From assembly GCA_016220175.1 (NCBI GenBank), contig JACRHZ010000059.1:1-33333 (forward strand): a DNA stretch of 33,333 nt. The letters run 5' to 3'. Of the stretch, positions 21,216 through 24,293 are shown in pieces (position 1 is the first letter of the stretch; each line of letters opens with the position of its first letter). This DNA comes from Candidatus Peregrinibacteria bacterium (lineage in GTDB: Bacteria; Patescibacteriota; Gracilibacteria; CAIRYL01). The notes beneath the pieces are model-generated. The model was given only the letters and a program-made list of their open reading frames with translations, ran no database searches and was not told the DNA's origin. A program made the translations under genes and the position numbers.

Positions 21216-22319
21216 ATGAAATCAGAAGAATTCATGAAGCGGGCTGCAAAACTTGCTACGAGAGGCATGGGATTCACGAAAACAAATCCTCTCGTTGGCG
21301 CTCTTTTGGTGAAAGATGGCGTGATTCTTGGAAAAGCGTGGCATGAGCGATTTGGAGGTCATCATGCAGAGGTAGAGGCTGTGTATGATGCGGAAAAGAA
21401 GGGATATTCCGTATTAGGAGCGCATCTCTTTGTCACGCTAGAACCCTGCTTTCATTATGGAAAAACGCCACCATGCGTCGATTTTCTTCTTGAGAAGGGC
21501 ATTTCAAAGGTTTCGGTGCTTTTTCGGGATAAAAATCCACTTGTTTCCGGAAAGTCTATAAAAAAATTGCAATCGAGTGGCGTTGAAGTTGATGAAAATT
21601 TTTTAGAACTCCGCGAAAAATACGCAGATATGTATGAAATATTCTTCTTTTCTGTTCAAAAAAAACTTCCGTTTACGGCTTTAAAACTGGCAATGAGTGA
21701 AAATCTCTGTATTTCAGATGGCGCTCATACTCAGACAAAAATAACGGGAAAAGAAACAGACAAACACGTCCATTTTCTTCGCCAAAAATACGATGCTATT
21801 CTCGTCGGAGCGCGTACAGTGTTCATCGATAATCCGCATCTCGGTGTGAGGTATGGGGAATTTTTTCAGGGAAAAAGAGATCCCCTGCGAATTCTTCTCG
21901 ATCCACATCTCCGCATTCCGATAAATTCGCAGGTGTTTCGGGATGAAAATTTCCTCGTGGTCGTTTTTCCGGAAAATGAAAAAATCGCGAGGAAAAAATT
22001 TGGGAAGAGAGTCTTAGTAATTGAACAAGGAGAGACAAGGCATGCCTTGTCTCTACGACAATTTGATCTCCGTTTGCTGCAAAAAGAATTATATGCTCGT
22101 GACATCGGAAGCATTCTCGTAGAAGGAGGGAAAAGAACGGCAGAAGAATTTCTTTCCCAAAAATGTGTTCAAAAAGGCTATTTTTCAACTTCGCCCAAAA
22201 CGATTATTGGAGAAAAGACAATTTCTGTGGAAGAAATTTTTAAGAATCCAGCATTTCATCTCCAAAAAGAGCGAAAGTTCGGAGTAGATACGCTTTTTGA
22301 AGGGAAATATGTTTTCTAG
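21216..22319 (+). CDS. ribD: riboflavin biosynthesis deaminase/reductase RibD
   Basis: This 367-aa bifunctional enzyme performs the deamination and side-chain reduction steps of riboflavin synthesis. The deaminase domain (1-140) has the zinc motifs HAE (50-52) and PCFHYGKTPPC (77-87). The reductase domain (about 150-367) shows FTALKLAMS, then YDAILVGARTVFIDNPHLGVR and ILVEGGKRTAEEF. The usual SxDG after LAMS reads ENLCISDG, slightly diverged. The start is ATG 21216, because the frame upstream (TTG 21153) adds only unrelated residues. A palindrome at 22031-22054 is inserted in frame and encodes ETRHALSL. No other rib gene is in the window. Confidence 0.92.
   Translation: MKSEEFMKRAAKLATRGMGFTKTNPLVGALLVKDGVILGKAWHERFGGHHAEVEAVYDAEKKGYSVLGAHLFVTLEPCFHYGKTPPCVDFLLEKGISKVSVLFRDKNPLVSGKSIKKLQSSGVEVDENFLELREKYADMYEIFFFSVQKKLPFTALKLAMSENLCISDGAHTQTKITGKETDKHVHFLRQKYDAILVGARTVFIDNPHLGVRYGEFFQGKRDPLRILLDPHLRIPINSQVFRDENFLVVVFPENEKIARKKFGKRVLVIEQGETRHALSLRQFDLRLLQKELYARDIGSILVEGGKRTAEEFLSQKCVQKGYFSTSPKTIIGEKTISVEEIFKNPAFHLQKERKFGVDTLFEGKYVF
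22031..22054. repeat. 24-bp palindrome inserted in frame in ribD
   Basis: A perfect 24-bp palindrome with arms AGAGACAAGGCA, followed by AC. It has the same GAGAC...GTCTC(TAC) frame as the palindromes in pheT, and encodes GETRHALSLR in the reductase domain. Confidence 0.8.
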
Positions 22320-22379: not shown

Positions 22380-22408
22380 TTGCTCTTTTTCCAAAATCGC
22401 GATATACT
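22380..22408 (+). promoter_or_regulatory. promoter of the aromatic attenuator and tyrA-pheA
   Basis: TTGCTC (22380-22385), exactly 17 bp, then TATACT (22403-22408). The expected start near 22415 is only about 2 nt before the leader-peptide ATG (22417), so the leader would be translated from a nearly leaderless mRNA. Confidence 0.65.
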
Positions 22409-22416
22409 TTTTCTCG

Positions 22417-22497
22417 ATGAAAACAATTCGATCATTCATTCAGGCCTTTTTCTTTTACTTTTTTTGGGCGTCAGCCGAGAAGGTGCCTGTGATGTAG
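22417..22497 (+). CDS. aromatic leader peptide (PheL-like)
   Basis: This 26-residue frame reads MKTIRSFIQAFFFYFFWASA followed by EKVPVM. The run Phe-Phe-Phe-Tyr-Phe-Phe-Trp (codons 22447-22467) is the mark of an attenuation leader peptide; E. coli PheL has a comparable Phe run. It lies directly upstream of the prephenate dehydrogenase/dehydratase gene and is followed by a terminator hairpin. Codons GAG AAG GTG (22477-22485) form the RNA segment that can pair with the terminator's first arm. When charged tRNA-Phe (or Tyr, Trp) is scarce, a stalled ribosome would favour the antiterminator. No Shine-Dalgarno; initiation is probably leaderless. Confidence 0.75.
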   Translation: MKTIRSFIQAFFFYFFWASAEKVPVM

Positions 22498-22552
22498 GAT
22501 ATTTCTTTTTCTGAATTTCACGCACTTTCTCGAGAGAGAAGGTGTTTTTTTT
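22441..22552 (+). promoter_or_regulatory. transcription attenuator of tyrA-pheA
   Basis: Four RNA segments can be read. Segment 1 (22441-22451, CAGGCCTTTTT) pairs with 22479-22489, covering segment 2. Segment 2 (GAGAAGGTG, 22477-22485) pairs with segment 3 (CACTTTCTC, 22523-22531), extended by a C-G pair on each side to 11 bp, as antiterminator. Segment 3 also pairs with segment 4 (GAGAAGGTG, 22536-22544), followed by eight T, as terminator. Segments 2 and 4 are identical, so the two states are mutually exclusive. The Phe/Tyr codons overlap segment 1. Confidence 0.75.
22523..22552 (+). terminator. Rho-independent terminator (attenuator)
   Basis: A 9-bp stem CACTTTCTC/GAGAAGGTG (one G-U), loop GAGA, then TTTTTTTT. 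It ends 19 bp before the tyrA-pheA ATG at 22572. Confidence 0.8.
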
Positions 22553-22571
22553 ATCTTTTTATTCTTCGTGT

Positions 22572-24293
22572 ATGAATGCTCGGCAGAAAGAAATTGTCGG
22601 AATTGTCGGAGGAAAAGGAAAAATGGGAAGATTTTTTGCACACATGTTCCAAAAACAGGGCTTTGAAGTTTTTATTTCCGATAAACGGAGCAAGATTTCG
22701 AATACAGAACTTGCCAAAAAATCTGACATCGTTCTCATCTCTGTGCCGATAGATGTCACCACATCCGTAATTCGTGAGGTTGGACCGCATATAAAAAAGG
22801 AAGGACTCATCATGGATGTTACTTCTCTGAAAGCTCCGATTGTGCAGGAAATGATGAGGAGCACGAACTGCTCTGTTCTTGGATGTCATCCGATGTTTGC
22901 GCCATCAAATTCCATGGAAGCGCAGGTGTGTATATTTTGTGAGGGGCGAGGAAAAAAATGGCAAAAACGTATTGTTGATATTTTTGAAAAAGAAAACGCA
23001 CTTGTTCGCTTTCTTGATGCAGAAAAACATGATGAGCTTATGACCGTAATTCAGGGTCTCATGCATTTTCTCGATGTTACCGCAGCAAGAACTCTTCAGA
23101 GTACGGGAATTCCGATTGAGAAATATTTTGAATTTAGATCGCCTTCATACCGTCTCAAGCTTGATCTTATGGGACGAACTCTCTACCAAGATGCGCGTCT
23201 CTACGGTCATATTCAGATGCAAAACCCAAAAACCAGTAAAATTTTGGAGAAGTTTTTAGAAAATGCGCGCGAACTTACGAATGTTATCGAAGAAAAAAAT
23301 TTCCGAAAATTTTCCGAATTTTGGGAATCATGTCGAGAGTATTTAGGAGATTTCGCTTCTGTATGTCAGAACGAATCTGATGAAGTGATTAATTTTCTTT
23401 CTGCTGCGAAAACTCATGCAAAAACATCGTGGGGGCGTCAACAGCAAAAAAAGAAAGGAGGGCTCGGACTTCTTGGTCCAGAAAATACTTTTTCCCATTT
23501 AGCAGCAAAAAGATTTTTGCCAGAGGAAGAAGATATTGTTTTTTACAGAACTCTTCCGGAAATTTTTGACGCATTTTCTCAAAAAGAATGTCGTCATATT
23601 CTGGTTCCTATGGAAAATAGAATTGAAGGAAGCATCGGACAGACACTCGATGGACTCTTTAACAGTCATCAGATGATTCAAGCGCTTTTTCGGATGCCAA
23701 TTCATTTTGTACTCGCAGGACTTCCGGGAAGCCGGATAGAACTCATTCAGCAAATTTCATCTCATTCGCAACCCCTCGCGCAATGTTCAAAATTTCTCTC
23801 AAAATCAGTTCCGAATGCCGATCTCGTGCCGGTGACTTCTACTGCGTATGCTATTCAGGAACTCCTGAGAAGCGGAAAAAAACATCATGCCGTGATTTGT
23901 TCTGAAGAAGCAGTAGAAAACGCTGGACTTCAAATTTTGTCGCGCGATATCTCCAATCTTACCGAAAATGAAACACGCTTTGCGTTTCTCTCTTCCCAAA
24001 AAATGAATTTTACTCCCAAAAAAAGCTTTCCCATAAGTTCTATTGTGTTCTATTTTGATCAAGATGCGCCGGGAACACTCGCTTCTGTTTTGGAAGAATT
24101 CAGTAAAGCGAATATTAACCTGACAAAAATCGAATCCCGTCCTGCAGGACATATGTTTGGAGAGTACGTCTTTTTCCTTGATTTTGAAGGGAGTATTTAT
24201 AATGCGAGGACTCAGGATGTTCTCCAAAAAGTTTCAGAAAAAGGCGCTCATGTAAAAATGCTGGGATCGTATCCGGTGATATCGGAGGTGTAG
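22572..24293 (+). CDS. fused prephenate dehydrogenase / prephenate dehydratase (TyrA-PheA)
   Basis: This 573-aa protein has two enzymes in tandem. Residues 1 to about 275 match the dehydrogenase of E. coli T-protein: IVGGKGKMGRFFAHMF (NAD site), VLISVPIDVTTSVI, VLGCHPMFAPSN, QGLMHFLDVTAARTL and SPSYRLKLDLMGRTLYQDARLY. Residues about 290-470 match prephenate dehydratase: LLGPENTFSHLAA, VPMENRIEGSIGQTLDGLF, TSTAYAIQEL and NLTENETRFAFL. An ACT domain follows (APGTLASVLEEFSKANINLTKIESRP), the usual site of Phe feedback. There is no chorismate mutase domain. It makes both Tyr and Phe precursors from prephenate. The start at 22572 is chosen because the earlier ATG (22542) lies in the terminator. 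Confidence 0.93.
   Translation: MNARQKEIVGIVGGKGKMGRFFAHMFQKQGFEVFISDKRSKISNTELAKKSDIVLISVPIDVTTSVIREVGPHIKKEGLIMDVTSLKAPIVQEMMRSTNCSVLGCHPMFAPSNSMEAQVCIFCEGRGKKWQKRIVDIFEKENALVRFLDAEKHDELMTVIQGLMHFLDVTAARTLQSTGIPIEKYFEFRSPSYRLKLDLMGRTLYQDARLYGHIQMQNPKTSKILEKFLENARELTNVIEEKNFRKFSEFWESCREYLGDFASVCQNESDEVINFLSAAKTHAKTSWGRQQQKKKGGLGLLGPENTFSHLAAKRFLPEEEDIVFYRTLPEIFDAFSQKECRHILVPMENRIEGSIGQTLDGLFNSHQMIQALFRMPIHFVLAGLPGSRIELIQQISSHSQPLAQCSKFLSKSVPNADLVPVTSTAYAIQELLRSGKKHHAVICSEEAVENAGLQILSRDISNLTENETRFAFLSSQKMNFTPKKSFPISSIVFYFDQDAPGTLASVLEEFSKANINLTKIESRPAGHMFGEYVFFLDFEGSIYNARTQDVLQKVSEKGAHVKMLGSYPVISEV

Follow-up and report, generated by a model that had tools for sequence, protein, structure and literature searches.

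A predicted ribosome-mediated attenuator in front of a tyrA-pheA fusion gene of a Candidatus Peregrinibacteria bacterium

Most Patescibacteria lack amino-acid synthesis, and to our knowledge almost nothing is known about gene control in this phylum. The locus considered here, which forms part of a window of 33,333 nucleotides (the whole stretch of DNA that was analysed), contains a gene for aromatic amino-acid synthesis that is preceded by a short, phenylalanine-rich reading frame and a series of competing hairpins. It raises the question of whether transcription of this gene depends on the progress of a ribosome through the leader, as in the pheL and trpL systems. We consider it highly probable that a ribosome-mediated transcription attenuator is encoded here, through which the charging state of tRNA-Phe (and of tRNA-Tyr) governs expression of the TyrA-PheA fusion. 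That the element is a genuine attenuator is argued by the switch predicted by a ribosome-footprint model, a sister element before aroG in the same genome, the recurrence of similar elements in other genomes and a test of antiterminator pairing. The type of mechanism is known; what is new is its occurrence in a phylum for which the initial annotation knew of no described attenuator. A literature search, covering mainly open-access journal articles, likewise found no description of an attenuator in Patescibacteria.

The gene at issue lies on the forward strand (22572 to 24293) and encodes, in one chain, a prephenate dehydrogenase (N- and C-terminal domains), a prephenate dehydratase and an ACT domain (Pfam PF02153, PF20463, PF00800 and PF01842). 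The initial identification as a TyrA-PheA fusion is thus borne out, and the gene makes the amino acids that the leader is predicted to sense; a chorismate mutase domain was not detected in the fusion protein. The start codon is the ATG at 22572, and an alternative, longer GTG start at 22542 falls within the terminator described below. Further upstream on the same strand, a putative promoter can be read from the sequence (22380 to 22408), composed of a -35 element TTGCTC (22380 to 22385), a spacer of 17 nt and a -10 element TATACT (22403 to 22408). It is followed by a leader peptide reading frame of 26 codons, MKTIRSFIQAFFFYFFWASAEKVPVM (22417 to 22497), which ends with a TAG stop codon at 22495 to 22497 and is rich in codons for the products of the pathway. 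Its codons 11 to 17 (22447 to 22467), assigned as regulatory by footprint folding, read Phe-Phe-Phe-Tyr-Phe-Phe-Trp. The promoter sequence, the leader and the FFFYFFW run are therefore all found where the initial annotation had placed them. The -10 element of the promoter agrees with the consensus at 5/6 positions whereas the -35 element is poor (3/6), and a consensus promoter scan did not detect the TTGCTC-17-TATACT promoter of the window leader.

Between the leader and tyrA-pheA, a terminator scan located an intrinsic terminator (22522 to 22552, forward strand) of the form GCACTTTCTC-GAGA-GAGAAGGTGT (22522 to 22545), followed by eight T residues (22545 to 22552), with a folding energy of -14.1 kcal/mol and a z-score of -3.3; the fold of the whole leader region likewise has a z-score of -3.3. 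The 3' arm of this terminator constitutes segment 4 (22536 to 22545), and a 9-mer from it, GAGAAGGTG (22536 to 22544), recurs on the same strand inside the leader at 22477 to 22485, an exact repeat that only 11 of 20000 dinucleotide shuffles reproduce. Its complement CACTTTCTC (22523 to 22531) lies in segment 3 (22513 to 22532), the antiterminator 3' arm, which includes the terminator 5' arm (22522 to 22531). Segment 2, the antiterminator 5' arm as defined by its duplex with segment 3, is situated in the leader frame directly before the stop codon (22476 to 22492), so that the antiterminator overlaps the end of the leader and excludes the terminator. The 2:3 duplex reaches -22.2 kcal/mol, with the lowest p value attainable with 100 shuffles, and the window leader pairs with its own terminator better than do all 45 other leaders swapped in. 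Segment 1, a protector identified with RNAfold (22437 to 22452), contains CAGGCCTTTTT at 22441 to 22451 and finds its pairing partner at 22477 to 22494; the corresponding fold of 22417 to 22500 comprises 16 pairs (-21.4 kcal/mol).

A rival reading would regard the hairpin as a plain terminator of ribD, which ends at 22319, 200 nt upstream, with tyrA-pheA transcribed from an independent promoter and the Phe-rich frame arising by chance, since the intergenic region is rich in T and such DNA translates into Phe. Yet FFFYFFW is the sole 7/7 run of Phe, Tyr or Trp codons that this T-rich background yields: a survey of 326 kb of the window genome, with 4206 short ATG frames, gave no second one. The gap of 26 nt between terminator and ATG, moreover, contains no evident promoter. 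Together with the precise recurrence of the terminator 3' arm inside the leader, the collinear copy of the element before aroG of the same genome and the strong enrichment of aromatic leaders with terminators before aroG and trpE (see below), these observations render chance a very improbable explanation, even though the other tyrA-pheA fusions of the class, which lack a leader, would be in keeping with it.

Folding in both states, which the initial annotation had proposed as a check, gave the terminator in free RNA and the antiterminator in RNA without segment 4. In the free, untranslated RNA, the 1:2 and 3:4 helices form together and produce the terminator state, whereas in an RNA that ends before segment 4 segments 2 and 3 pair. 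The four-segment logic of the pheA and trp attenuators is thus present and thermodynamically consistent, both in these folds and in the footprint model. From this arrangement, we infer how the leader may regulate tyrA-pheA. RNA polymerase would begin at or just upstream of the leader ATG, with a ribosome trailing behind it. With Phe-tRNA or Tyr-tRNA in short supply, this ribosome would stall on codons 11 to 16 and cover segment 1 while leaving segment 2 free, such that 2:3 pairing would block the terminator and allow tyrA-pheA to be transcribed. Conversely, with ample Phe and Tyr, the ribosome would reach the stop codon and cover segment 2, so that segments 3 and 4 would pair and transcription would stop at the T tract. 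If the leader were untranslated, the protector helix would form alongside the terminator (1:2 + 3:4) and transcription would end as well.

The geometry of the leader agrees with this scheme. In the footprint model, the RNA downstream of the ribosome was folded codon by codon, with the footprint extending to 12 nt past the first base of the A site, and the energies presume textbook footprints and 37 °C. The antiterminator has a probability of 0.70-1.0 with the A site on codons 11 to 16 (F, F, F, Y, F, F), of 0.51 on Trp17 and of at most 0.02 from codon 18 onward, while a ribosome at the stop codon gives a terminator probability of 0.99. The predicted switch from antiterminator to terminator is therefore located at codon 17/18, directly after FFFYFFW, and shuffling positions 22468 to 22518 alone abolished it in 299 of 300 trials, with a comparable switch kept in 1. 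Across 46 attenuators, the predicted switch lies at a median of 1 codon past the last regulatory codon. Since codons 11 to 16 would support antitermination and Trp17 is borderline, the element appears to be tuned to Phe and Tyr, the products of the fusion enzyme, which would act as its signals. The proposal of Phe/Tyr/Trp sensing in the initial annotation is accordingly best narrowed to Phe and Tyr, with Trp as a marginal signal in the model that varies with the assumed footprint.

A second element of this kind is found in the window genome itself. The DAHP synthase (aroG) gene (locus L293, G000:C26) is preceded by a leader, MNLHVAFWAFYFFPEHRV, and a terminator, GCACTTTCTTGAGACACCGGGAAGTGC-TTTTTT, downstream of a promoter TTGACT-16-TATAAT whose -10 element is separated from the leader ATG by 8 nt, as in the window. 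The two leaders are collinear from the promoter/-10 region to the terminator. Their local alignment scores 62; none of 1000 shuffles exceeded 50, and the attenuator of the class that came next reached 43. Moreover, footprint folding again predicts a switch directly past the last aromatic codon of the run. Judging from their sequences, the two attenuators appear to be paralogues, and the pair before tyrA-pheA and the DAHP synthase gene would thus probably have originated by duplication. A DNA search for extra copies of the element in the window genome returned only short matches, the aroG copy itself being too diverged for such a search.

Some 40-odd further genomes in the class, all from outside the genus of the window genome, encode a full-length TyrA-PheA fusion, the closest being 47% (G144) and 44% identical (G001, a member of the same family as the window genome; contig CAIRYL010000055.1, uncultured Ca. 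Peregrinibacteria bacterium). A leader is absent before every other tyrA-pheA fusion of the class, all of which are at most 47% identical to the window protein. Because this absence, taken alone, would fit the outcome that the initial annotation had named as speaking against an attenuator, the remaining genes of the aromatic pathway were examined, and these did yield leaders. For this purpose, upstream regions were scanned for terminators preceded by a short ATG frame (6-45 codons) in which at least 4/6 codons are aromatic or Trp pairs occur. Upstream of tyrA, pheA and fusion genes, where 71 regions and then 20 more were scanned, this gave 4/91 matches versus 7/455 in shuffled regions. Of these four, the window is accepted, and perhaps also L060, which has MNSLPQKSVTQKRSFFGWGFYFF before a tyrA. 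The matches at L048 and L066 were dismissed as chance.

In contrast to these numbers, an aromatic-rich leader with a terminator is found in 32/70 upstream regions of aroG in the class, as against 5/350 shuffled regions (1.4%), and the corresponding counts for trpE are 13/70 and 8/350 (2.3%); as the compared genomes are related, these counts do not equal numbers of independent events. Examples are MQSNNFFFGFYYQAR, MKINNFYYFGFYFEAR and MLEESQKIRPLLKENSFGWAFFYFYFS for aroG and MNIASKMWWWNEDLM and MTRNNKNWWWINTSEQLRR for trpE, and an additional batch from the class contained more leaders from the same families. In other classes of Patescibacteria, 8/12 DAHP synthase loci have a leader and a terminator, e.g. 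MQNSSHNFYFYFYFTNPGGARG, which suggests a phylum-wide device. These eight loci (L374, L381, L387, L391, L392, L393, L395 and L396) carry Phe/Tyr leaders. In several families of the class, trpE is preceded by a leader with WW or WWW and a terminator (L183, L189, L202, L205, L207, L211, L212, L213, L215, L223, L230 and L238). No Trp-leader attenuator was detected upstream of trpE in the window genome.

The detection of these elements relied on the leader and the terminator, and pairing between segments 2 and 3, which was kept out of the search, could be tested afterwards in 46 cases, in which segment 2 sits around the leader stop codon. This pairing is stronger than in dinucleotide shuffles (p≤0.05) in 80% of the 46 cases, and in 76% the own leader ranks within the best decile when compared to leaders swapped in from other genomes; the pairing in the window is the strongest of the 46. 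For the leaders from other classes, p≤0.02 was obtained in 7/8. The terminator sequences vary by lineage (GTCCGC/GCGGAT, AGCCTC/GAGGCT, CTCAGC/GCTGAG and others), so that segments 2 and 4 have changed together, and the two segments indeed co-vary strongly between lineages at aroG and trpE. Within an aligned aroG family of 10 sequences, pairing is high, at 98% for the terminator and 83% for the antiterminator, as compared to 22-44% and 38-59%, respectively, in slid versions. Covariation within this family is too weak to establish the pairing, with one compensatory pair in the terminator, and compensatory changes in the antiterminator of the 10 aligned aroG leaders did not exceed those in shuffles. 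In many aroG and trpE attenuators, segment 2 is (T)GAGG or a near variant, which often overlaps or adjoins the leader stop codon (L281, L286, L287, L295, L297, L298, L330, L212, L213, L215 and others).

These comparisons also bear on the idea that the leader controls the translation of tyrA-pheA, by sequestering its start region, or acts as a ligand-sensing stalling peptide. The tyrA-pheA ATG follows the terminator by only 26 nt, translation-level attenuators exist in other bacteria, and the hydrophobic leader peptide resembles a membrane or arrest peptide. However, the hairpin is followed by eight T residues and leaves the start codon outside, and what relatives share is the terminator and antiterminator logic and, within the peptide, nothing but the aromatic codons. 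In many aroG cases, moreover, a distance of 100-260 nt between terminator and gene is too great for the start to be masked. Control at the level of translation or by a sensed ligand is therefore hardly to be expected here, and transcription attenuation driven by tRNA charging remains the preferred reading. A T-box, riboswitch or protein-dependent attenuator accompanied by an incidental short frame can be set aside with near certainty: such devices are common controls of aromatic genes in Firmicutes, but they do not explain why the switch sits at the codon run, and an Rfam search at the gathering threshold found only a tRNA gene elsewhere in the window, with no match to a T-box, a known riboswitch or anything else relevant at E values up to 10.

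Rfam families of amino-acid-operon leaders, including the enterobacterial Phe leader, likewise gave no match at E values up to 10. The element shows all those hallmarks of ribosome-mediated attenuation that can be assessed at this locus and is thus predicted to function like E. coli pheL-pheA (and also pheST), without detectable sequence homology. The E. coli system, which senses Phe-tRNA charging (PMC11802643), similarly combines a Phe-codon leader, protector, antiterminator and terminator before a prephenate dehydratase gene. Unlike its E. coli counterpart, the window element precedes a TyrA-PheA fusion, contains a mixed Phe/Tyr(/Trp) run and has a promoter that abuts the leader ATG, in a genome without a Shine-Dalgarno signal. 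The sister element and the class-wide aroG leaders resemble Corynebacterium glutamicum aroR-aroF, where a Phe-Tyr-Phe leader lies before a DAHP synthase gene (PMC11802643, PMC3890552). They differ in belonging to another phylum and in having longer runs (4-6 aromatic codons), and the window genome is predicted to use the device for tyrA-pheA as well. Similarly, trpE of E. coli and C. glutamicum is preceded by trpL, a leader with tandem Trp codons, and by a terminator, like the 13/70 trpE regions of the class; trpL-like elements thus occur in other class genomes and are absent before trpE of the window genome.

The start of the window transcript, which the 8 nt between the -10 element and the leader ATG would place at or within 1-2 nt of that ATG, makes a leaderless leader peptide plausible. 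Where a promoter can be recognised before aroG leaders, the spacing from its -10 element to the ATG is bimodal, mostly 6-10 or 20-26 nt; transcripts in the 6-10 nt group, which includes the aroG copy of the window genome and, by inspection, the window, would begin at or very near the ATG. In the window and loci L153-L172, which make up the 326 kb of the window genome used for these statistics, a Shine-Dalgarno signal precedes 9/176 genes versus 10/176 in the control, and it is this near-absence, in combination with the 8-nt gap, that lends credibility to leaderless translation of the leader peptide. As a sign of general leaderlessness, -10 boxes were also sought ahead of ordinary starts in this genome, where their positional enrichment is weak. 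The initial annotation had presented a leaderless leader peptide as a further novelty, a claim that has to be withdrawn, because the transcript of Sinorhizobium meliloti trpL begins at the ATG of its leader frame (PMC7298713), a start that is known there and predicted here. In start regions of the window genome, positions -15 to -11 are rich in T, and G is strongly avoided at -1. Its 16S rRNA retains the anti-Shine-Dalgarno sequence CCTCC, and the 16S rRNA gene (L401, G000:C17:17927-19934) has 2008 bases versus 1533 model positions, which indicates an insertion of ~475 bases.

Such attenuators upstream of aroG, trpE and tyrA-pheA point to sensing of tRNA charging in those Patescibacteria that can make aromatic amino acids. 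Transcription and translation would then have to be coupled in these organisms, and metatranscriptomes could be used to read the regulation of the genes thus flagged. As a self-contained DNA module, the element could be transferred to E. coli or a cultivated Patescibacterium as a tool for studying coupling and leaderless translation. We lean slightly towards a still broader picture, in which Patescibacteria (CPR) would run aroG, trpE and tyrA-pheA as a phylum-wide regulon, chiefly by tRNA-charging attenuators and without dedicated repressors, often using leaderless or near-leaderless leaders and ribosomes that ignore Shine-Dalgarno sequences, with the window copy representing an aroG attenuator duplicated onto tyrA-pheA.

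Two minor observations concern neighbouring subjects. Upstream of hisG at L355, L347 and L364, short GTG or TTG frames with clustered His codons (e.g. SSHRHAHHHSHTREERMAS) are followed by terminator-like hairpins and are possible His attenuators. In addition, among the matches listed, which are mostly distant pheA genes, TyrA-PheA fusions of like layout occur in Methanomicrobiales and a Woesearchaeote (L077, L078, L079, L081, L085 and L097); these are 32-35% identical to the window protein and possibly reflect an old gene transfer with CPR bacteria.
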